Made by a program: the position numbers and the translations under genes. A model generated the notes under the pieces. It had not been told where the DNA came from. It searched no databases and saw nothing but the letters and a program-made list of their open reading frames with translations. From an uncultured Pseudorhodobacter sp. (GTDB lineage: Bacteria; Pseudomonadota; Alphaproteobacteria; Rhodobacterales; Rhodobacteraceae): a stretch of 32,245 nucleotides of DNA. Below, one piece after another: positions 1,305-32,154 of the stretch (positions within the stretch are counted from its first letter, which is position 1; every line of letters begins with the position of its first letter). The DNA lies in contig CAJXWJ010000043.1 of NCBI GenBank assembly GCA_913062925.1, forward strand, positions 1 to 32,245, written 5' to 3'.

Positions 1305-1744
1305 GAGCCTTGCTGCAGCGGGTCTCTCGGGCAAGTGTCACGGTTGAGGGCGCTGTGGTGGGCGAGATCGGCGCGGGGCTGTTGATCTTGGTCTGCGCCA
1401 TGCAGGGCGACACCGAGGCTGAGGCCGAGCGTTTGGCCGCCAAGATTGCCAAGCTGCGGATCTTCAAGGATGCGGCGGGCAAGATGAACCTGTCGGTGAC
1501 GGATGTGGGCGGCGCGGCGCTGGTGGTCAGCCAATTCACCCTGGGCGCCGATCTGCGCGGCAATCGGCCTGGATTTTCCTATGCGGCAGCGCCGGATCTG
1601 GCGCGCGGGCTTTATGAAAAGATTTCGGAGCGTTTGGCGTCGCATGGCATGGCGGTGCAAAACGGGGTGTTTGGCGCGGATATGGATGTGGCGCTACATA
1701 ATGATGGGCCAGTCACCATCTGGATGGACACGGCAGAGATGTAG
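1301..1744 (+). CDS. dtd: D-aminoacyl-tRNA deacylase
   Basis: A 147-residue protein of full family length. DTD hydrolyses D-amino acids wrongly attached to tRNA, and also glycyl-tRNA(Ala), and so protects translation. Both family motifs are visible: SQFT at residues 77-80 in the active site, and GPVT at 136-139, the Gly-cisPro motif that reaches across the dimer. The N-terminus [15 protein letters not shown] is diagnostic. Translation starts at GTG 1301 inside the stop codon of the fructokinase gene, so expression is probably coupled. Nothing appears missing. The assignment is secure. Confidence 0.95.
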
Positions 1745-1749
1745 CGCGG

Positions 1750-1842
1750 TTAGCGGCGCCTGCCTGAAGTGCCAGAGCTGATTGCCACCGCGGCGTTGCT
1801 GAGAAAGACAGCCGCGGCAAGGGCGAGATAAAGCATATCCAT
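1750..1842 (-). CDS. Small hydrophobic peptide, 30 residues
   Basis: A short minus-strand frame, tail to tail with dtd. The ATG (1840-1842) is preceded by an excellent Shine-Dalgarno sequence, AAAGGAGGC, read on the minus strand at about 1848-1856 with good spacing. The peptide starts MDMLYLALAAAVFLSN, continues hydrophobic and Ala-rich to about residue 20, and ends with a basic tail (SGRRR). This looks like a single-pass membrane miniprotein with the tail in the cytoplasm. I do not recognise its family. The evidence that it is real is the ribosome site and the membrane-peptide composition. Gene finders would usually miss it because of its size. It could also be the leader peptide of an unseen transcript. 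Confidence 0.5.
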   Translation of the reverse strand: MDMLYLALAAAVFLSNAAVAISSGTSGRRR

Positions 1843-1954
1843 TGCGAGCCTCCTTTGGTTAGGGGTTAGGCTCCCATTGATTTACCTTTCGGTCAAATAA
1901 CAAAGCCTATCAGGGATGAAACATCTGCGTGAACGGCTGTTGGATGCCGAGATT

Positions 1955-2016
1955 GGGGGGGCACCCCCCCAGCGCCTTTGGCGCTTCCCCCCTGGGATAT
2001 TTGTGCCAAGATGAAA
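1955..2016 (+). repeat. GC-rich intergenic hairpin repeat, copy 1
   Basis: A run of seven G and seven C separated by CA, then AGCGCC-TTT-GGCGCT, then a C-run and the conserved tail TGGGATATTTGTGCCAAG followed by ATGAAA. The core and tail recur almost unchanged at 14399-14449 in the same orientation. AGCGCC/GGCGCT forms a perfect 6-bp stem, and the G-run can pair with either flanking C-run, so two alternative folds are possible. It is non-coding. It looks like a dispersed extragenic element, or a terminator-like structure, of the kind common in Rhodobacteraceae intergenic regions. Confidence 0.75.
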
Positions 2017-2037
2017 TGGTGGTTTTGGCGCGACAAA

Positions 2038-2415
2038 ATGCATTACGGAAGCTGTGCCTGGCGCGGTTCGGTTTTCGGTGGCGGCGGAGTTAGCGGCGCC
2101 AAATGCCAGTCATTGCGGCATGTGCCGAAACAGCTCGGGGCATTATTTTGCATCGACCGAGGTGAAAGGCGCAGTTGCAAACCGAGCCAACAGCGGTACT
2201 GCGCTGGTATGCTTCTTGAGCCAAAGTGCGGCGGGGGTTTTTCGCGGTTTGCGGCGCATCGCTGTTTTGGGATCCAGCGGGGCGGAATTTGGCTTGCGGG
2301 GGCGATGGGGGCTTTTGACGGGCCAACGGCCCCGGCACTGGATCTGCATATCTTTGTCGGCGAGAAGGGTGATGATGATCAGATTTGTGATGGCCTGCCG
2401 CAGAACTTGGCCTGA
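2038..2415 (+). pseudogene. Decayed GFA-family gene (glutathione-dependent formaldehyde-activating enzyme-like)
   Basis: Pieces of one GFA-family protein appear in order but in three frames. Frame 1 from ATG 2038 gives MHYGSC. Frame 2 then gives GAVRFSVAAEL and HCGMCRNSSGHYFASTEV up to about 2185, including the family's Cys-x2-Cys zinc ligands. Frame 3 from 2205 gives WYAS, a stop codon, then GFFAVCGASLFWDPAGR. Frame 1 again gives GAFDGPTAPALDLHIFVGEKGD and ends ICDGLPQNLA with TGA at 2413-2415. GFA proteins are small (about 130 residues) zinc proteins with a CENP-V fold. The order of motifs and the total length match one intact ancestor. At least three frame changes and one in-frame stop make it non-functional unless the sequence has errors. 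Confidence 0.8.
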
Positions 2416-2781
2416 GACTGCGAATTTTGGACCGATGGAATTTGCGACGGCAATGGCCCGACAATCAGCGCGGCGTATTTTTTTCTGAATTTTGTTGCAA
2501 ATTTAACTTGACTTGCGCCGCCCACCCATGGCGGCGCTGCAAAAAATTCCCTCAGTAGGCTTTTGTTTGCATGAGAAAAAACCTTGGCGGCCCGCCTCAC
2601 GCCCTTAAATTTAAGGCAAAACTGTCAACTTTACTAGACAATTGCCAACGTCACAAAAGAGTGACAGCGTCAAATCAGCGCAGCAAGAAAACGTGAGTCG
2701 TTCGCTTGTCTGGGCTGGGCGGAGCTAATGTCGTCTCTCCGCCACGCTTTAAATGCGACGACGAGGGCACGGAGGAACATC
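2416..2781 (+). promoter_or_regulatory. puc operon upstream regulatory region
   Basis: No gene is supported in these 366 bases. They become A+T-richer than the surroundings and hold several symmetrical elements. There is an 8-bp perfect GC hairpin (2515-2522 with 2530-2537), a 14-bp perfect palindrome CCTTAAATTTAAGG (2603-2616), a CrtJ/PpsR-type site (2623-2640), and an inverted repeat GTCAC-N6-GTGAC (2650-2654 with 2661-2665). By analogy with puc promoters of Rhodobacter, the transcription start should lie between the CrtJ/PpsR site and the pucB ribosome site. I could not fix -35 and -10 elements, and saw no convincing FNR (TTGAT-N4-ATCAA) or IHF site. Confidence 0.6.
2623..2640. promoter_or_regulatory. 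CrtJ/PpsR-type operator, TGT-N12-ACA
   Basis: TGTCAACTTTACTAGACA matches the TGT-N12-ACA consensus exactly, including near-symmetric inner bases. It lies 142 bases before the pucB start. CrtJ/PpsR represses bacteriochlorophyll, carotenoid and puc genes under high oxygen and light in purple bacteria. Only one perfect site is visible; a second, usual for cooperative binding, was not found nearby. Confidence 0.75.
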
Positions 2782-2937
2782 ATGTTAAACGACCCTGATA
2801 AGGTTTGGCCAACCGGCTTGACCTTGAGAGAAGCTGAAGAAGTCCACAGCTATTTGATCGACGGCACGCGCGTTTTTGGCGTTATCGCCCTTATCGCGCA
2901 TCTTTTGGTTGCCGTTGCCACCCCCTGGCTTGGATAG
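2782..2937 (+). CDS. pucB: LH2 light-harvesting beta polypeptide
   Basis: A 51-residue beta apoprotein of the peripheral antenna in the intracytoplasmic membrane. It binds bacteriochlorophyll and carotenoid together with PucA. The family pattern is clear: N-terminal [19 protein letters not shown], an inner-side His in [12 protein letters not shown], one membrane helix [18 protein letters not shown] with the B850-type ligand His, and a C-terminal PWLG. The start is ATG 2782, seven bases after GGAGG (2771-2775). An in-frame ATG at 2728 would add 18 residues unlike any PucB and was rejected. It is the first gene of the operon, nine bases ahead of pucA. Confidence 0.97.
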
Positions 2938-2946
2938 GAGCGCATC

Positions 2947-3252
2947 ATGAACAATGCAAAGATGTGGCTTGTCGTCAAACCAACTGTCGGGATTCCCTTG
3001 TTTCTGAGCGCAGTCGCCGTTGGGTCGTTTGCCGTCCATGTGGCAGTATTGAGCAACACGACTTGGGTGGCGGATTTTCTGTCGGGTAAGCCGCTGGGCG
3101 CGGGGGCGATGTCGGCCTCGCTGGTCTTGCCAGAGCAAGAGGCCGCCAAGGCGTCTTATACTTTGTCGGGCCAAGAGGTGCTGATCACCTTGCCAGATGG
3201 CAGCACTGCGGTTGCTGTGATCAAGCAGCCTGCCATTCTGGCGTCGAACTAG
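2947..3252 (+). CDS. pucA: LH2 light-harvesting alpha polypeptide, blue-shifted type with C-terminal extension
   Basis: A 101-residue alpha apoprotein of LH2. Residues 1-47 align without gaps to Rhodobacter sphaeroides PucA from memory: [20 protein letters not shown], one membrane helix, His31 (FAVHVAVL) as the B850-type bacteriochlorophyll ligand, then TTW at 38-40. Positions 44-45 are Phe-Leu instead of Tyr-Tyr. In known LH2 proteins the aromatic residues there hydrogen-bond the acetyl groups of the B850 pigments, and Phe-Leu variants absorb near 820-826 nm. About 54 residues follow the usual end ([12 protein letters not shown] through AILASN); the tail is mildly polar with no second membrane helix. 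Extended PucA tails are known in some species. The LH2 identity is secure; the spectral shift is inference. Confidence 0.96.
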
Positions 3253-3287
3253 GCTGATCCGTCCTGTGCCAAGGGCGGTGTACGAAG

Positions 3288-3326
3288 GTGTGAGGCTCTT
3301 TGTCCTCCGGCACAAGGGTCTCACAC
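3288..3326 (+). terminator. Stem-loop between pucA and pucC
   Basis: GTGTGAG (3288-3294) pairs with CTCACAC (3320-3326), and the stem continues through GCTCTT with AAGGGT using two wobble pairs. There is no U-run after it. In Rhodobacter, hairpins at this place stabilise the abundant pucBA message and attenuate read-through into pucC. The same role is inferred here, which would explain high antenna and low PucC levels. Confidence 0.65.
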
Positions 3327-3378
3327 TGCAACTTTCGCGCGGGGAAGCTGGCCTTCCCTAGAAAATTGGAGCCGGCCA

Positions 3379-4860
3379 ATGTTCAAATACAAAAGCTTTG
3401 CGCTGCGCAAGATCTCGGGCGTTGGGCTGCGTTATTTGCCCTTTGCTGATGCGGCCTCGGAACAAGTGCCCTTGGCGCGGTTGCTGCGGTTGTCGCTGTT
3501 TCAGGTGACTGTGGGCATGGCCTTGGTGCTGATGGTGGGCACCTTGAACCGCGTGATGATTGTCGAGCTGCGGGTTCCGGCAACGCTGGTGGGCGGGATG
3601 TTGGCGCTGCCTTTGGTCTTTGCACCCTTTCGCGCCCTGATTGGCTTTCGCTCGGATCGGTTTCAATCGGCTTTGGGGCTGCGGCGATTGCCCTATATTT
3701 TCAGGGGTACCATGCTGCAATTTGGCGGCTTTGCCATCATGCCCTTTGCGCTTTTGGTGCTGTCTGGCTATGGCGAGGCGATTGATGCGCCGCGTTGGAT
3801 CGGGCTGAGTTCGGCGGCGCTTGCGTTTTTGCTGGTGGGAGCGGGGGTGCATATTGTGCAGACCATCGGCCTGGCCTTGGCGACGGATCTGGTGCCAGAA
3901 GAGGATCAACCCAAAGTCGTGGGGCTGATGTATGTCATGCTGCTGCTTGGCATGATCGTCAGCGCGTTTTGTTACGGCGCCTTACTTGAAAATTACACCC
4001 CGGGCCGGTTGATTCAGGTCATTCAAGGCTCGGCCGTGGTCACGGTTGCGTTGAATTTCTTTGCGATGTGGAAGCAAGAGGCACGCGACCGCAGGCGTGC
4101 CACGGCGCCAAAGGGGCCAGAGGTGGGTTTTGCCGAAGCTTGGGCGCGGCTGACCGAGCGGCGGGGCATGCTGCGGCTGCTGGCGGTGATTGCGCTTGGC
4201 ACCGCAGGCTTTGGCATGGCGGATGTGCTGCTCGAGCCTTTTGGCGGCCAAGTTCTGCATATGAGCGTGGCTGAAACCACGCGGCTTACGGTGTTTCTGG
4301 CCTGTGGCAGCTTGATTGGCTTTACCATGGCCTCGCGCTGGCTGGGCCGGGGGGGGCGGCCAATGGATATGGCGCTTTATGGTGCGGTGCTGGGGCTTGC
4401 GGGGTTTGGCGCAATCGTTTGGTCCTCGGCGGCGCTTTCGGTGCCAGTGCTGCTGATGGGCACACTTTTGGCAGGCTTTGGAGCGGGGCTGTTTGGCCAT
4501 GGCACCTTGACGGCGATCATGCGCTCGGCCCCGCGTGAACAGATTGGCCTGTCACTTGGGGCATGGGGCGCGGTGCAGGCGACGGCAGCAGGCTTGGCAA
4601 TTGCAGCAGGTGGGCTGATCCGCGACATGATCTTGGCGCATGAGGCGATCGGGGCCTCTGCCGCCACCCCCTATACATCGGTATTTCTGCTCGAGGCCGG
4701 ACTTTTGGCTCTGGCGCTGCTGTTTGCCCTGCCCCTGCGCAGTACAGAGGGTTTGCGCAACACAGGCGACAGTGGCGCAGAAACGCTTTATCCTGAGACT
4801 GCAAAAGCGGCGCATGGCACGGCGCAGCCTTTTGCCGAAGGGGGCGCAGGCTCTTTGTAA
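3379..4860 (+). CDS. pucC: LH2 assembly protein PucC (BCH/MFS-type membrane protein)
   Basis: A 493-residue polytopic inner-membrane protein with about twelve hydrophobic segments of MFS arrangement. PucC and its relatives LhaA and Bch2 are needed for antenna assembly, probably by handling bacteriochlorophyll or the nascent LH polypeptides. Family landmarks are the N-terminal cytoplasmic GLRYLPFADAASEQVPLARLLRLSLFQV, NRVMIVELRVPATLV, FAPFRALIGFRSD, LGLRRLPYIFRGTMLQFGG, and LVPEEDQPKVVGLMYVMLL. The C-terminal 35 residues after the last helix are hydrophilic. The ATG at 3379 follows a GGAG site. It lies 126 bases after pucA, separated by the stem-loop, and 45 bases before the next operon gene. 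The identity is secure. Confidence 0.95.
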   Translation: MFKYKSFALRKISGVGLRYLPFADAASEQVPLARLLRLSLFQVTVGMALVLMVGTLNRVMIVELRVPATLVGGMLALPLVFAPFRALIGFRSDRFQSALGLRRLPYIFRGTMLQFGGFAIMPFALLVLSGYGEAIDAPRWIGLSSAALAFLLVGAGVHIVQTIGLALATDLVPEEDQPKVVGLMYVMLLLGMIVSAFCYGALLENYTPGRLIQVIQGSAVVTVALNFFAMWKQEARDRRRATAPKGPEVGFAEAWARLTERRGMLRLLAVIALGTAGFGMADVLLEPFGGQVLHMSVAETTRLTVFLACGSLIGFTMASRWLGRGGRPMDMALYGAVLGLAGFGAIVWSSAALSVPVLLMGTLLAGFGAGLFGHGTLTAIMRSAPREQIGLSLGAWGAVQATAAGLAIAAGGLIRDMILAHEAIGASAATPYTSVFLLEAGLLALALLFALPLRSTEGLRNTGDSGAETLYPETAKAAHGTAQPFAEGGAGSL

Positions 4861-4905
4861 GACACGTTAACCGGTCCGTTCGGGCCCCGCGAAAAAAGGT
4901 GCAAC

Positions 4906-5541
4906 ATGACGACGATACTGACGCGACTCTATTCTGACCGTGCTGCGGCAGAGGCGGCACGGGCCGGCCTGCTGAGTATTGGCCAAGATGCGGCGACCCT
5001 GCATATCATCACCGCCCAGACCGAAGGCGGTGCAGCGGCGGCGATGAAATCGGTACGGGTCGTGGCGGCATTGGCGCAGGTCTATGCGCAGGCGATGACC
5101 GGCACGCAGGCGCTTTTGGTGGTGCAAGCCGCCTTTGCGCCAATTGGCACCGCGCGCAATGCAATGCGGTTGCTGCGGAAATTTCCGGCATTGGATGTCG
5201 GCCTGGAAGACGAAGACATCTATCTGCGCGAGCATCCGACGCCGGATTATTCCAACCAGATTATGGACAAGCATCCACTGCTTTTGTCGAACCCTTTCCG
5301 GCCCCTGCCCCACGGCCACATCCTTGGCAACGCGCCACTTTTGCCCCACAAACCGCGCACCTCGGCCATGCGCGGCGGGGCCTATATGTCAAAACTGGTT
5401 TGGCCGATGAAGCTGTTGTCAGCGCCCAAAGAGCGCGGCTCGGCCATCAGGGGCGGCAGACTGATCTCTGCGATGTTCGGCCTGCCCTTGCTGGTGAAAT
5501 CCTGGCCCTCGCGCGACGATTTGCCGACCTTGCTGCGGTAA
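4906..5541 (+). CDS. puc-operon distal protein (PucE/PucDE-like, function uncertain)
   Basis: A 211-residue protein encoded 45 bases after pucC and before the terminator, so almost certainly in the puc transcript. Residues 1-90 form an alpha/beta pattern starting MTTILTRLYSDRAAAEAARAGLL with an Ala-rich helix. From about residue 100 the protein is Pro-rich and basic, with repeated short phrases (LLSNPFRPLPHGHIL, APLLPHKPRTSAMRGGAYMSKLVW, SAIRGGRLISAMFGLPLLVKSW). There is no signal peptide or clear membrane helix, though the C-terminal segments are mildly amphipathic. The position corresponds to pucD/pucE of Rhodobacter capsulatus, whose products stabilise LH2, and this is the basis of the call. 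The sequence resemblance was not verified, so no symbol is given. Confidence 0.65.
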   Translation: MTTILTRLYSDRAAAEAARAGLLSIGQDAATLHIITAQTEGGAAAAMKSVRVVAALAQVYAQAMTGTQALLVVQAAFAPIGTARNAMRLLRKFPALDVGLEDEDIYLREHPTPDYSNQIMDKHPLLLSNPFRPLPHGHILGNAPLLPHKPRTSAMRGGAYMSKLVWPMKLLSAPKERGSAIRGGRLISAMFGLPLLVKSWPSRDDLPTLLR

Positions 5542-5567
5542 AACCGCTCTGCGGCGCAGACCCAAGT

Positions 5568-5593
5568 GGGCGCTTTCCTCTGCGCCCGCTTTT
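5568..5593 (+). terminator. Terminator of the puc operon
   Basis: GGGCGC (5568-5573) and GCGCCC (5582-5587) form a six-bp GC stem with an eight-base loop. Two bases later comes TTTT. It lies 27 bases after the stop of the last puc gene and has the form of an intrinsic terminator, though the U-run is short. Confidence 0.6.
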
Positions 5594-5753
5594 GCTGTGA
5601 CCAAGGCCGGCTTTGCCACCGCAAGCCCAAGTTTTGCGGCGAAATGGCAACGCATCCGCGCGGAAGCCTTAGACAGGCAAGGAGGCTCTGGCCAATACGC
5701 CTCAGATAAGCGCACTCTGAACGTAGTGTTTGGGTAAAGAGTCGAGATAAAGA

Positions 5754-6620
5754 ATGACACGGATTGCGGCTTTGACGCATGTGCGTAAGGACGACTATTT
5801 TCTGGCGCTTTGGATCAAATATTATTCCGAAATCTGCGGGCGCGCACATCTGCATGTGATGCTGGATGGTGATGACTGGACAAGTGCTGTCGATTTAAGC
5901 GGGCTTCAGGTAGAAGTCTTAACCGGCCGAGAAGGCCTGCGCGTTCGTGATGATAGCCGATTGGCAGCAGCTCATACCCGCAAACTGTCCGAGCTGTTTC
6001 AAAGCTATGACTATGTGATCCGCGGTGATTGCGACGAGTTTGTCTGCATCGACCCCGCGGCGGGCTTAAGCTGGCCCGAGGCCTTGTCCGAAACAAGGGC
6101 GGAAGGTTATGTTTATTGCAACGGGGTCGATGTTATCCATGATCCAACCACCGAAGCCGCCTTTGACTCCCGCAAACCCATTCTGGCCCAACGGCGCAAT
6201 GGCGTGCTGCACAAAGGCTATTTCAAACCAAATGTGATGTCACGCGCAGTAGCAAGTTCGGCTGGGGGGCATCGCGCCGATGGGCCTGTTGTGGTCAGCG
6301 CGCATTTCTACATGTTTCATCTGGCAAATTTTGACGAAGGCGTTTTTGCGCAGCGGATGCAGGCAAGAGTGTCAGATGCCAAAGGCGGCAGCTACGATTC
6401 CCACGCCGTGACCCGCCGCAGCGTCAGCGCGGTGATCGACACCTGCGACAGCCCGTTGGATTTTGACGAAGGGATCGCGCGCGCGCGCATCCAACTGTCG
6501 ACACGCGGCGGCAAGACTGTGGTCTACAGGCCACAAAAGTTTCGCGACGGAACTGTAGAGTTCGAGGGAAACAAGGCGTTTTTGGTCCGTATAGACCCAC
6601 GCTTTCGGGACATTCTGTGA
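5754..6620 (+). CDS. Family-2-like glycosyltransferase
   Basis: A 288-residue soluble protein starting MTRIAALTHVRKDDYFLALWIKYYSEI. This opening resembles the Glyco_tranf_2_4 / GT92-like group, which act on surface polysaccharides. The probable nucleotide-sugar and metal motif is in VIRGDCDEFVCID at about residues 84-96. Later segments (HKGYFKPNVMSRAVAS, GHRADGPVVVSAHFYMFHLANFDEGVF) match the same group. No membrane helix or signal peptide is seen, so it probably works at the cytoplasmic face. It has its own upstream gap of about 210 bases after the puc terminator and ends 37 bases before a convergent gene, so it seems monocistronic. Donor and acceptor are unknown. Confidence 0.72.
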   Translation: MTRIAALTHVRKDDYFLALWIKYYSEICGRAHLHVMLDGDDWTSAVDLSGLQVEVLTGREGLRVRDDSRLAAAHTRKLSELFQSYDYVIRGDCDEFVCIDPAAGLSWPEALSETRAEGYVYCNGVDVIHDPTTEAAFDSRKPILAQRRNGVLHKGYFKPNVMSRAVASSAGGHRADGPVVVSAHFYMFHLANFDEGVFAQRMQARVSDAKGGSYDSHAVTRRSVSAVIDTCDSPLDFDEGIARARIQLSTRGGKTVVYRPQKFRDGTVEFEGNKAFLVRIDPRFRDIL

Positions 6621-6656
6621 TGCCCCGAAAGCCAAACATGCGTGCAAAAAGCAGCG

Positions 6657-8552
6657 CTACTGTGCCGCTTCCCACTCCCAGCCTTGGGCGAATTGGCCCA
6701 AGACCGCGCTGATCTGCGCGTCATTGACCGCGCCCGAGCGGGTAAGCTTGGCCACCAAACCGCGTTTTTTGTCCTCGATCACGGCGGTCACTTGTGCGGG
6801 CAGACCTGCTTCGGTCAAAGCGGCGTTGTAGATACGGGTGATCGCCATACGCCGCAGATCGGGTTTGAACACCTTGCCGACAGCGGTTTTGGGCAGTTCG
6901 GGCAGGATCTCGATATGTTTGGGCAGCGCTGCGCGTTCAAGGATGTGATCGCGGGCATAGGCGTGCAGCTCGGCTTCGGTCAACCGCGCGCCCTTGGCCA
7001 GCTCGACATAGGCGCAGGGCAATTCGCCGGCATGGGCATCGGGCTGGCCAATAGCGCCGACAAAGCCAACGCCGTCGCAACCCATCAGCGCCTCTTCGAT
7101 CACGGCGGGGTCGATATTGTGACCGCCGCGGATGATCAGATCTTTGGCGCGGCCGGTGATGAAGAGATAGCCGTCCGCATCCAGCCGCCCCAGATCGCCC
7201 GAGCGCAAAAAGCTGTCTTCGGCAAAAAGATCGTTGTTCTTATCGGTCTCGGTATAGGTGCCGCCAGCAATCACGCCGGGGTTGGCGATGCAGATCTCGC
7301 CGACCTCATCCACCGCGCAATCGCGAAATCCTTCGGGGGTCTTTTGCAAGATCCGCACATGGCAATGCGGAAAGGGCAGACCGACCGAGCCGATTTTCTT
7401 GGTGCCTTCGGGCGGGTTGATCGAGACAAGGCAGGTGCATTCGGTCAGCCCATAGCCTTCGACGATCTGCACGCCGGTGATTTTCTCAAACCGGTTGAAC
7501 AGCTCGATCGGCAGCGGCGCCGAGCCGGAGAACGCGCCGCGCAGGGTCGAGATATCGGCATTCACCGGCCGTTGCAGCAGCGCCGACAGCGCCGTGGGCA
7601 CCGTTGCCATATAGGTGATTTTCCAGCGTTCGATCAATTGCCAGAAGTTATCAAACACCCCCTCGCCGCGATAGCCCGCGGGGGTGGGGAACACGATATG
7701 ACAGCCCGAAGCGATGGCCGACATCAGCATCGGATAAGCGGCAAACACATGAAACAGCGGCAACGGGCAGAACATCACATCAGATTCGTTGAACAACAGC
7801 CGCTTGCCCAGCCAGCCTTGGTAGATCATGCCGCGCGCGCGGTGTTGCGCGACCTTGGGCATGCCGGTGGTGCCTCCGGTGTGGAAATAGGCGGCGATAT
7901 GGTCTTGCTTGCGGTCGGCAAAGCTGAGCCGGTCGCTGGGGTGTTTGCGGCATTCGGCGTTAAAATCCAGAATGCGGGCGGTGTGGCGCGCGGGATTTTT
8001 CGGGCGCACCAGCGGCACGATCCAGCTTTTGGGCGGCGTCAGATAGCCGTTCAGATCAACCTCTAGCACATGTTTGACATTGGGCGCGTTGTTCAGCGCT
8101 TGGGCAACCTTTTGCGGCAGGTCGGTCTTGGGAAAGGCCTTGAGCGTGACCACCACTTTCGCCCGCGTCTCGCGCAAGATAGCGGCGATTTGTTCAGGTT
8201 CTAGCAGCGGGTTGATCGGGTTGACGATGCCTGCCGTCGCCCCTGCCAGCAAAGTGATTGCGGTTTCCAGCGCATTGGGCAGGATATAGGCCACCACATC
8301 GCCCTCGCCCACGCCCAAACTGCGAAACAGATTGGCAGCTTGGGTGACACGGCCATGCAGCGCCTGCCATGTCAGAGTTTGCGACGGCGCTTTGGGGTCT
8401 GACAGCAACTGAAAGCTGATCGCAGGGCGGCTGCCATGCGTGGCAGCAGTGTCCGAAAGAAACCCGTAGATCGATGCGGGCAGCGCGCGGTCTGCCCAAG
8501 CAGACTCGGCCTCAATGGCTTGCAGATCCGCAAGCGTCGCAAAACTTCCCAT
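6657..8552 (-). CDS. AMP-forming acyl-CoA synthetase
   Basis: A 631-residue member of the ANL superfamily that activates a carboxylic acid, probably a fatty acid, to acyl-AMP and then acyl-CoA. The motifs are in order: the P-loop TGGTTGMPK at 225-233, EGYGLTE at 365-371, SGDLGRLDADGYLFITGRAKD at 451-471, and the catalytic lysine in PKTAVGK (K560). An N-terminal extension of about 35 residues precedes the core (ASIYGFLSDTAATHGSRPAI). About 70 residues follow the catalytic lysine, longer than usual. There is no signal peptide. The nearest minus-strand gene upstream ends with its own terminator, so this gene probably has its own promoter in 8553-8663. The substrate cannot be read from the sequence. 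Confidence 0.88.
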   Translation of the reverse strand: MGSFATLADLQAIEAESAWADRALPASIYGFLSDTAATHGSRPAISFQLLSDPKAPSQTLTWQALHGRVTQAANLFRSLGVGEGDVVAYILPNALETAITLLAGATAGIVNPINPLLEPEQIAAILRETRAKVVVTLKAFPKTDLPQKVAQALNNAPNVKHVLEVDLNGYLTPPKSWIVPLVRPKNPARHTARILDFNAECRKHPSDRLSFADRKQDHIAAYFHTGGTTGMPKVAQHRARGMIYQGWLGKRLLFNESDVMFCPLPLFHVFAAYPMLMSAIASGCHIVFPTPAGYRGEGVFDNFWQLIERWKITYMATVPTALSALLQRPVNADISTLRGAFSGSAPLPIELFNRFEKITGVQIVEGYGLTECTCLVSINPPEGTKKIGSVGLPFPHCHVRILQKTPEGFRDCAVDEVGEICIANPGVIAGGTYTETDKNNDLFAEDSFLRSGDLGRLDADGYLFITGRAKDLIIRGGHNIDPAVIEEALMGCDGVGFVGAIGQPDAHAGELPCAYVELAKGARLTEAELHAYARDHILERAALPKHIEILPELPKTAVGKVFKPDLRRMAITRIYNAALTEAGLPAQVTAVIEDKKRGLVAKLTRSGAVNDAQISAVLGQFAQGWEWEAAQ

Positions 8553-29791: not shown

Positions 29792-31193
29792 TTACTCCTT
29801 AACGTAAACGTAGTCGTAGTTCACAGGGATCGAGACCGGATCGACATAGAGATTGTCAGCCCCGCCCATACGCGCCGATTTCATGGTGTAGCGCTGTTCG
29901 TTGAACACCGGCACCCAAGGCGCTTGCTCCATCACCTTCATATAAACATCCGACCACATCTTCATGCGCTCGGGTGCTGCAGGATCAATCATGCTGTCGG
30001 CAGCAGTTGCCTCGGCATCAATCGCAGCGTCGCAGAATTTGGACCAGTTCCAGCCGCCATCAACTGCGCCAGAGCAGCCAAGGATTGGACCAAAGAAGTT
30101 CGACGGGTCGGGGAAGTCTGCAATCCAAGCCATGCCGCCGGACCAGATCATTGGGGCTGTGCCCGCGCCACCGGCTTCGATCACATTGGCCTGAGCAATA
30201 GATTGGATCGAGGCTTTGACGCCAATCGCTGCCAAGTCTTGCTGGATGGCCTGTGCGATCCGTGGATTTGGATCGGTGTTCATCACATAAAGCTCGGTGT
30301 CAAAGCCATCAGGCAGACCCGCATCAGCCAGCATCTTCTTGGCTTCTTCAGGGTTATAGCTATAGCCCTTATAATCCATCGTGTAGCCGGGCATCGACGG
30401 CGGCAGCGGCTGGTTTGCCACCACAGCGCGCCCGTTGATCAACTGCACGATACGGTCTTTGTTGATCGCCATATTGATGGCCTTGCGAACTTCGACATTA
30501 TCCAGCGGCGGGATGGTCACGTTCAAAGTGATATAGCCGGTCTGTAGCTGACCGCCTTCGACCACTTGCGCGGCCTGTGCTGGATCCCCCATGACTTCTT
30601 GGAATTTGGCAGGTGGAATGCCGTCGCCGGGGACATCGACTTCACCGTTTTGCAGCCGAAGCAGCGCCACGATAGGCTCTTGGCCGACTTCAAAGGTCAC
30701 AGTGTCCAGATAGGGCAGGCCAGCGCGCCAGTAGTCGGGGTTCTTGGCAAAGATCAACTTTTGGCCAATGGTCCATTCCGCAAGTTTGAAGGCACCTGTG
30801 CCGACAGGCATCTTGCCGAAATCACCATTCGCGGCCTCGACTGCTTCTTTTGGCACCACAGAGGCAAAGTTCAAAGCCATGACATGCAGGAAGGTTGCAT
30901 CTGGACGCGACAGTTTGATCTCAACCGTCGCAGGGTCCAGCACGGTCACGCCCGCAAGCGAGGTTGCCGATCCGTCTGCCATCGCGTCATAGCCTGCAAT
31001 CGCGCCAAAAAAGCCAGCACCTGGCGATTGGGTGGCTGGCGTGGTGACGCGGTCCAGCGAATATTTCACATCCTCGGCGGTCATCACGCGACCGTTGTGA
31101 AACTTCACACCTGCGCGCAGATGAAAGGTAAAGGTCATGCCATCCGCCGAGATGTCATAGCTTTCCGCCAGACCCGGGCGCAGTTCAGTGGTG
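29792..31193 (-). pseudogene. Peptide-type ABC substrate-binding protein, 5' end removed by an IS
   Basis: A family-5 extracellular solute-binding protein (DppA/OppA type). The frame is open from the IS edge: TELRPGLAESYDISADGMTFTFHLRAGVKFHNG and onward through VGTGAFKL, NPDYWRAGLPYLDTV and the C-terminal lobe, to TAA 29792. About 467 residues remain of the usual 520-540, with a whole C-terminal half. The signal peptide and the first part of lobe I are missing, and a stop codon in the IS closes the frame just upstream. Translation could restart at ATG 31138 (448 residues), but the product could not be exported. It is the head of the operon with the amidase and the double ATPase. Confidence 0.88.
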
Positions 31194-31221: not shown

Positions 31222-31260
31222 CTTCATTAATCTCCATTTAGGAGAGGGAGGGTGAGTCCA

Positions 31261-32154
31261 ATGGCCAAAGATCAACAGGAAATCCGGCGCAAATTGCGTA
31301 TTCTTGATCACGCCAAGCAATCCGGTGATGTGAGCAAGACCTGCCGATATTTCGGGATTGGCCGGGCGAGCTTCTATCGTTGGCGAAGTGCCTATCAGGA
31401 TCGTGGCGAGGCCGGTTTGACCAACAACAGGTCAGTGCCACACAATCATCCAAACAAAACGCCCGACGCCGTGGCCCAGAAGGTCTTGCATCTGCGCAAA
31501 AACTATCACCTTGGGCCGATCCGCATCGTTTGGTATCTTGAGCGCTATCATGGGCTCAAGATTTCGGACGCGGGGGTTTATAGGATCCTCAAACGCAATG
31601 GGGTGAACCGGCTACCAGGTGGCACCAGGGTGCGCAAGATCCATACCAAACGGTATAATAAACAGGTCCCCGGGCATCAAATTCAGATGGATGTTAAGTT
31701 CCTGACATTCGTGGACAAAACTGGCAATAAGACCCGCCGCTTTCAATATACAGCCATCGACGACGCCACCCGCATTCGCTCTCTGAAGATCTACGAACGC
31801 CATACCCAGGCCAATGCAATCGACTTTGTGGATCACATCGTTGCAACATTTCCATTCCGAATTCAGGAAATCCGAACTGACAATGGCCACGAGTTCCAAG
31901 CCAAGTTCCACTGGCACGTCGAGGACAAAGGCATGCGCCACGCTTATATCAAGCCAAGCTCACCCCAGCTTAACGGCAAGGTTGAGCGCTCACATCGATC
32001 TGATGAGCAGGAGTTTTACCAACTCCTAAGCTATACAGGCGATGTCGATTTGAACGCAAAACTGGCGGAGTGGGAAAAGTTCTATAACCTTGCCAGACCT
32101 CATGGAGCTCACAACGGAAAAACACCTTACGAAGCGCTCGGGGAGAAGCTATAA
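31261..32154 (+). CDS. IS481-family transposase (DDE integrase type)
   Basis: A 297-residue transposase, complete. The N-terminal part holds a helix-turn-helix (VSKTCRYFGIGRASFYRWR, about 24-42), followed by a second DNA-binding stretch (GPIRIVWYLERYHGLKISDAGVYRILKRNGV). The catalytic core has D144 (IQMDVKF), D207 (RTDNGHEF) and E242 (GKVERSHRSDEQEF), that is D-62-D-34-E. The C-terminal YNLARPHGAHNGKTPYEAL is the usual end. ATG 31261 is preceded by GGGAGGG; a GTG at 31252 is a possible earlier start. There are no frameshifts, so the element may still be active. It is read opposite to the gene it interrupts. Confidence 0.93.
   Translation: MAKDQQEIRRKLRILDHAKQSGDVSKTCRYFGIGRASFYRWRSAYQDRGEAGLTNNRSVPHNHPNKTPDAVAQKVLHLRKNYHLGPIRIVWYLERYHGLKISDAGVYRILKRNGVNRLPGGTRVRKIHTKRYNKQVPGHQIQMDVKFLTFVDKTGNKTRRFQYTAIDDATRIRSLKIYERHTQANAIDFVDHIVATFPFRIQEIRTDNGHEFQAKFHWHVEDKGMRHAYIKPSSPQLNGKVERSHRSDEQEFYQLLSYTGDVDLNAKLAEWEKFYNLARPHGAHNGKTPYEALGEKL

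Follow-up and report, generated by a model that had tools for sequence, protein, structure and literature searches.

We found that the pucBA pair in the window (the whole 32,245-nucleotide stretch of DNA that was analysed, from an uncultured Pseudorhodobacter sp.) is the only LH2 of its genome, and the antenna that it encodes is probably blue-shifted, with a single band (High-800 / LH4 type). Because the alpha chain carries Val41, Phe44, and Leu45, comparison with published LH2 spectra leads us to predict one absorption band at about 803-806 nm (800-806 nm in a wider statement). The operon and the positions concerned are the following, where the named loci are the best 80 of 205 loci from a scan with peptide patterns from PucA, including its 44-45 region.

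2623..2640, no strand assigned: TGT-N12-ACA box upstream of pucB (pattern match)
2782..2937, + strand: pucB, LH2 beta chain, 51 residues (Pfam LHC; homologue in 80 of 80 named loci)
2947..3252, + strand: pucA, LH2 alpha chain, 101 residues, with a C-terminal extension (open reading frame, Pfam, alignment to solved chains)
3067..3069, + strand: Val41, a position occupied in B800-820 complexes by a hydrogen-bonding Tyr (Val in 73 of 77 aligned sequences; role of Tyr41 from an excerpt of PMC6988754)
3073..3075, + strand: Asp43 (Asp in 77 of 77 aligned sequences)
3076..3081, + strand: Phe44-Leu45, in place of the hydrogen-bond donors to the B850 acetyl groups (codons and alignment)
3379..4860, + strand: pucC, BCD/MFS-family assembly factor for LH2 (Pfam PUCC on 3379-4857, E 1.6e-142; homologue in 80 of 80 named loci)
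4906..5541, + strand: orfX, 211 residues, directly 3' of pucC, with an alpha/beta N-domain and C-terminal repeats of about 22-24 residues

The pair was assigned to LH2 by its alpha and beta chains (both matched by Pfam LHC), by its ligand histidine (His31, aligned to solved LH2), and by the adjacent pucC. The reading frames of pucB, pucA, pucC, and orfX were all intact, and pucB, pucA, and pucC are under purifying selection. Together they form a pucBAC-orfX operon behind a PpsR-type box, TGT-N12-ACA, which we take to be the PpsR/CrtJ consensus. This pattern occurred within 400 nt 5' of pucB in 74 of the 79 loci that had at least 300 nt present upstream; the number expected after mononucleotide shuffling was 6.3. 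Many loci carry a pair of boxes spaced by about 26 nt, and the window has one exact box. A genome-wide search for a second LH2 (3,147,326 bases in 111 contigs, estimated to be 99.9% complete) found none beyond this pucBA. The four antenna-family matches in the assembly were this pair and a pufBA pair, which lies apart from it on contig C24, followed by pufL and pufM, with a presumed pufQ ahead of these genes and a presumed pufX behind them. Since the other antenna pair is pufBA, the statement of the initial annotation that this was the only LH2 in view is valid for the genome as a whole.

The pucA frame runs from the ATG at 2947 to a stop ending at 3252 and encodes 101 residues (Pfam LHC, E 2.3e-12). 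The best match in the PDB was the alpha chain of Rhodopseudomonas palustris PucD-LH2 (7ze3, E 4.2e-15), and matches were also obtained to the R. sphaeroides LH2 alpha chain (7pbw, 2.9e-14) and to B800-820 (1ijd, 7.2e-12). Residues 1-50 aligned gap-free to 7ze3 and residues 1-48 to 7pbw, and His31 and Trp40 were in register with the solved LH2 alpha chains, which bears out the gapless alignment of residues 1-47 to the R. sphaeroides chain that had been proposed with His31 in register. Around positions 44-45 the window reads TTWVADFL, 7ze3 TTWVAKFM, and 7pbw TTTWLPAYY. Phe is encoded at position 44 by TTT (3076-3078) and Leu at position 45 by CTG (3079-3081), so that the codons and the alignments with solved chains and relatives agree with the earlier reading of Phe-Leu rather than Tyr-Tyr; the range originally given, 3076..3084, takes in a third codon, which encodes Ser46. 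Residue 26 is Gly.

Among 77 distinct aligned sequences, positions 44-45 were Phe-Leu in 72, Tyr-Leu in 3, and Phe-Ala in 2. Phe44 was encoded by TTC (64) or TTT (10) and Leu45 by five different codons; because the pair is found in 72 of 77 sequences while its codons vary, it is not a matter of chance. The pN/pS of residues 1-47 was 0.00-0.11 (11 pairs). Asp43 was considered as a hallmark of the Phe-Leu form and rejected, since a Tyr-Tyr PucA (L134) has Asp43 and three further genomes of the Phe-Leu or Tyr-Leu type do not (Gly in G207, Asn in G285 and G068). In an ALOHA genome (L083, PucA at 3001-3336), the chain is Phe-Leu, Arg replaces the otherwise conserved Trp40, and residues 10-16 or so are altered.

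According to excerpts of PMC8775250, the B850 acetyl groups accept hydrogen bonds from alpha-Tyr44 and alpha-Tyr45 (wild-type R. sphaeroides, Tyr44-Tyr45, 850 nm), the R. sphaeroides Y44F/Y45L mutant is a B800-826 complex, and the Rhodoblastus acidophilus B800-820 structure (LH3, 1IJD) carries Phe and Leu at the hydrogen-bonding positions; what the initial annotation said of the aromatic pair, the mutant, and the acidophilus complex agrees with this. In the B800-820 complex, Tyr41 makes up for the loss with a hydrogen bond of its own; the PucD form loses the bond without replacement and is bluer still (PMC6988754, in part), and PucD-LH2 has one band, at 803 nm (excerpt of PMC9618040). In the window, Phe44 and Leu45 cannot act as hydrogen-bond donors for the acetyls of the B850 pigments, and Val41 supplies no replacement bond; the B850 band would then reach or merge with the B800 band, at about 803-806 nm, and the complex would assemble and serve as a constitutive antenna feeding LH1. 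A 44-45 pair without hydrogen-bond donors, the lack of Tyr41, and the status of sole peripheral antenna are all as expected of the High-800 / LH4 type. In the parts of a 2025 review available (PMC12654162), F44L45 is the motif common to AAPs with single-band LH4 (Roseobacter, Dinoroseobacter, Roseicyclus), which use LH4 as their exclusive peripheral antenna, and the bands tabulated there lie at 804 nm (Dinoroseobacter shibae) and 806 nm (Roseobacter litoralis and Roseicyclus mahoneyensis). According to this review, the High-800 / LH4 antennas of R. denitrificans, R. litoralis, D. shibae, and R. mahoneyensis share with the window both F44L45 and the role of sole peripheral antenna, and the passing remark that the LH2 of R. 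denitrificans is even bluer proved a better analogy than B800-820.

The initial annotation had proposed a short-wavelength, B800-820-like LH2. The short wavelength stands, both hydrogen-bonding residues being lost; the value of 820 nm is probably wrong, given Val41, the nearest solved chain, and the LH4 motif. A two-band, LH3-like complex at B800-820/826 is a minority reading to which we would still give some weight: the Phe-Leu pair is shared with 1IJD and with the B800-826 mutant of R. sphaeroides (PMC8775250, in excerpt), and Met26, which belongs with F44 and M45 to the Rhodopseudomonas rule for LH4 in Table 2 of PMC5069747 (seen in part), is missing, the window having Gly26-Phe44-Leu45 under a rule made for one genus. 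Phe-Leu alone does not force 806 nm, because the R. sphaeroides mutant likewise has no Tyr41 and absorbs at 826 nm (PMC8775250, in excerpt). However, residue 41 is Val rather than the Tyr donor of B800-820 (PMC6988754, in part), the closest solved chain is that of the 803-nm PucD-LH2, and the Roseobacter-group F44L45 antennas so far characterised in the parts of PMC12654162 available are single-band. An LH2 near 840-850 nm, with the red shift restored by other residues or by carotenoid packing, is very improbable. LH2 is also tuned by ring size and exciton coupling, which are invisible in sequence, and Asp43 and the long tail near the pigment site could matter outside any model, but in the papers examined every case that lost both bonds is blue-shifted (PMC9618040, PMC8775250, and PMC6988754, each in excerpt). 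We therefore favour the single-band High-800 / LH4 reading.

The solved chain nearest to the window, that of PucD-LH2 (7ze3), has Val41, Phe44, and a non-aromatic residue 45 (Met) in identical register. It differs in Lys43, in Met26, and in its 59-residue PDB chain without the hairpin tail described below, and it is one of several puc sets, made in low light. Compared with 1IJD, the window has Val41 in place of the Tyr41 that gives the replacement hydrogen bond (PMC6988754, in part), and the 1IJD chain is 53 residues long.

PucA extends 54 residues past position 47, a part of the chain that the initial annotation did not mention and that falls into two main regions.

3088..3174, + strand: PucA residues 48-76, variable linker, predicted to be mostly disordered (alignment and AlphaFold2)
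3175..3219, + strand: PucA residues 77-91, beta-hairpin by prediction (strands 77-81 and 87-91), its turn an invariant Asp84-Gly85 (alignment and AlphaFold2, modest confidence)

This tail was kept in 45 of 46 genomes of the Phe-Leu or Tyr-Leu type and was shortened in the remaining one (G207). Mean entropy in the 77-row alignment was 0.31 for the core, 1.97 for the linker, 1.51 for the hairpin, and 2.51 for the end, and Asp84-Gly85 was invariant; the conservation of the hairpin region lies between that of the core and that of the linker. The pN/pS of residues 48-101 was 0.16-0.41 (11 pairs), with synonymous change near saturation in the pairs that involve the window. AlphaFold2 predicted a membrane helix at residues 12-36, a short helix at 40-46 that holds Phe44-Leu45, and the hairpin strands, with modest confidence for PucA as a whole (pLDDT 66.4, pTM 0.29). 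A fold search of the tail against the PDB gave nothing at E 0.001 or better, and no description of the PucA tail or of orfX was recognised in searches of openly licensed literature. Extra residues after the membrane span, as here, also occur in Rubrivivax gelatinosus, in R. palustris PucAb/c, and in the 263-residue second PucA of an R. sphaeroides-type genome. However, the long extensions of other alpha chains seen in the sample are rich in Ala, Pro, and Glu, whereas the tail of the window has a conserved, predicted hairpin with an invariant Asp-Gly. The R. sphaeroides-type gene in the sample encodes 54 residues without the hairpin tail, and Tyr-Tyr chains in the sample were either short or carried Ala/Pro/Glu-rich extensions. 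An assembly role has been reported for the alpha-chain extension of R. gelatinosus (excerpt of PMC5069747). We think that the tail is a conserved accessory whose candidate role, on the periplasmic side, is assembly or packing.

The gene that follows pucC, orfX, had no match in Pfam or NCBIfam. In its model, the alpha/beta N-domain (about residues 1-110) is predicted with confidence and the repeats with low confidence; these repeats reach high copy numbers in some loci of the Roseobacter group (L027, L037, L045, L047, L051, L057, L058, and L075). In a fold search, the best matches were CutA-like and none was significant (E 0.11 at best). A whole-genome search with an orfX profile (alignment A2) found it in 34 of 34 genomes of the Phe-Leu or Tyr-Leu type, in none of 4 with Tyr-Tyr only, and weakly in 2 of 257 without PucA (G058 and G126). 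In the larger sample, orfX was present in all 11 further Phe-Leu genomes with a fetched flank, the stretch of G699 being too short. It was present in 76 of the best 80 of 205 named loci, 75 times on the pucA strand and once on the opposite strand (L069); the negative loci were L048 and L072, with full flanks, and L019 and L030, whose contigs end early. A strict tie between orfX and the Phe-Leu form was rejected, since one genome (G763) has orfX beside a short Tyr-His PucA, two without PucA gave the weak matches mentioned, and L048 and L072 are without it. We think that orfX is a conserved accessory with a candidate role in biogenesis.

The window's antenna probably adds one more High-800 / LH4 to a family in which this form is common, and its spectral motif is already known. 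In a first family sample of 295 genomes (nearly one per genus), PucA was matched in 38, which comprised 31 with Phe-Leu, 3 with Tyr-Leu, and 4 with Tyr-Tyr only. A larger sample of 394 genomes, which contains the first, gave PucA in 55: 43 with Phe-Leu (a count that takes in the frameshifted G699), 3 with Tyr-Leu, and 9 others (Tyr-Tyr, Tyr-His, Tyr-Trp, and one genome with both Phe-Tyr and Tyr-Tyr). Among the best 80 of 205 named loci, 75 were Phe-Leu, 3 Tyr-Leu, and 2 Phe-Ala. The family figure of 43 of 55 is less biased than that of 72 of 77, because the 77 sequences came from a scan that used patterns of this very region. A class-wide sample of 385 genomes yielded 12 PucA matches. Beyond the window's own, one more was Phe-Leu with the hairpin tail (L115); the remaining matches were other pairs or short chains, with L123 and L125 being Phe-Leu in a different setting. 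Named Roseobacter species had Phe-Leu with the same tail as the window. In G699 (L254), a Phe-Leu-type pucA lies in two frames, by mutation or assembly error. Tyr44-His45 was seen in four PucA genes of three genomes (L258, L259, L260, and L261; two in G742, one each in G763 and G766), and this pair was not recognised in the literature searched.

On a PucC tree of 88 rows, built by a quick method, Tyr44-Leu45 requires five changes among rows of the Phe-Leu type, four of which accompany V41Y and N37K; the fifth, in Tateyamaria pelophila (L030), is Tyr44 alone. The link between F44Y and V41Y was not significant: of the five events in the sign test, four agreed, none was opposite, and one showed no difference (p 0.125). 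Five of the six Tyr44-Leu45 rows (L030, L041, L059, L225, L226, and L227) have Tyr41 and Lys37, the PucC of L041 and L225 being identical, and Phe44-Ala45 occurs in two loci with Lys37 and Phe41. Named strains are available for both forms: Tateyamaria pelophila DSM 17270 and Thetidibacter halocola KMU-90 for Tyr-Leu, Thalassobacter stenotrophicus CECT 5294 and Roseobacter cerasinus AI77 for Phe-Leu. Since PMC5069747, in the part available, lists Y44-M45 as an 800/840-nm form, Tyr-Leu complexes would be expected to be redder than Phe-Leu ones.

The operon occupies a site that holds no such cassette in 7 of the 10 relatives compared.

1745..6656, no strand assigned: interval from dtd to an AMP-ligase gene, with pucBAC-orfX and a glycosyltransferase gene (4912 bp here; 74-908 bp in 7 relatives)

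The dtd gene was present in 15 of 15 genomes of the genus. Among the 10 relatives with a fetched dtd region, the gap to the AMP-ligase gene was 74-908 bp in 7, and the ligase lay outside the stretch in 3. PucA was found in 1 of these 15 genomes, several of which are incomplete, namely the window's own, and reaction-centre genes in 10 of 15. The window's PufM is 83-95% identical to those of the same genus and 78-88% to those of ten other genomes, whose PucC is 71-85% identical to the window's. Across the ten genomes (45 non-independent pairs), PucC identity did not follow AMP-ligase identity (r 0.01), and the correlation for PufM was 0.59. Because the site is empty in 7 of 10 relatives, PucA was not found in the 14 other genomes of the genus, and PucC identity does not follow the AMP-ligase, our results suggest that the cassette was gained by horizontal transfer; loss in sister species is a possible alternative. 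The base composition of the operon (0.603, against 0.607 for the window) gave no sign of transfer, a search of 1700-6720 for direct repeats marking an insertion found only short imperfect ones, and a search of PLSDB for plasmid-borne named relatives gave no match. Near the contig end, an insertion-sequence transposase that includes an integrase core is the presumed product of the reading frame at 31252-32154. The neighbouring peptide-binding protein frame at 29792-31138 (- strand) seems to be without a signal peptide; the transposase-like frame may have cut it short. Among close freshwater relatives, for which measured spectra were sought, partial sources describe Rhodobacter M37P and its clade as without puc genes and Stagnihabitans lacustris as having no LH2 peak, and a paper on a Manitoba marsh gave no such spectrum.

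The same distribution bears on the suggestion that the operon is silent or non-functional here, perhaps through recent acquisition. No PucA was found in the 14 other genomes of the genus and the site is empty in 7 of 10 relatives, but the four frames are intact, the core is under strong purifying selection, the upstream PpsR-type box is kept, and the base composition fits the window, so that we regard silence as highly unlikely. For the functional antenna that we prefer, we offer one tentative and rather doubtful extension: pucBAC-orfX may be a mobile, self-contained cassette, with orfX and the hairpin tail as working parts (for assembly, or as a periplasmic ring brace), which moves between genera apart from the reaction-centre genes and has been re-tuned redward by repeated N37K, V41Y, and F44Y changes.

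The survey adds scale to a known motif: the Tyr-Tyr LH2 of the textbooks is a minority of the family sample, and Phe-Leu is the rule (43 of 55). Moreover, the repeated changes at positions 37, 41, and 44 would offer natural replicates of the way in which hydrogen bonds set antenna colour, and the tail and orfX are concrete candidate assembly factors of such antennas.
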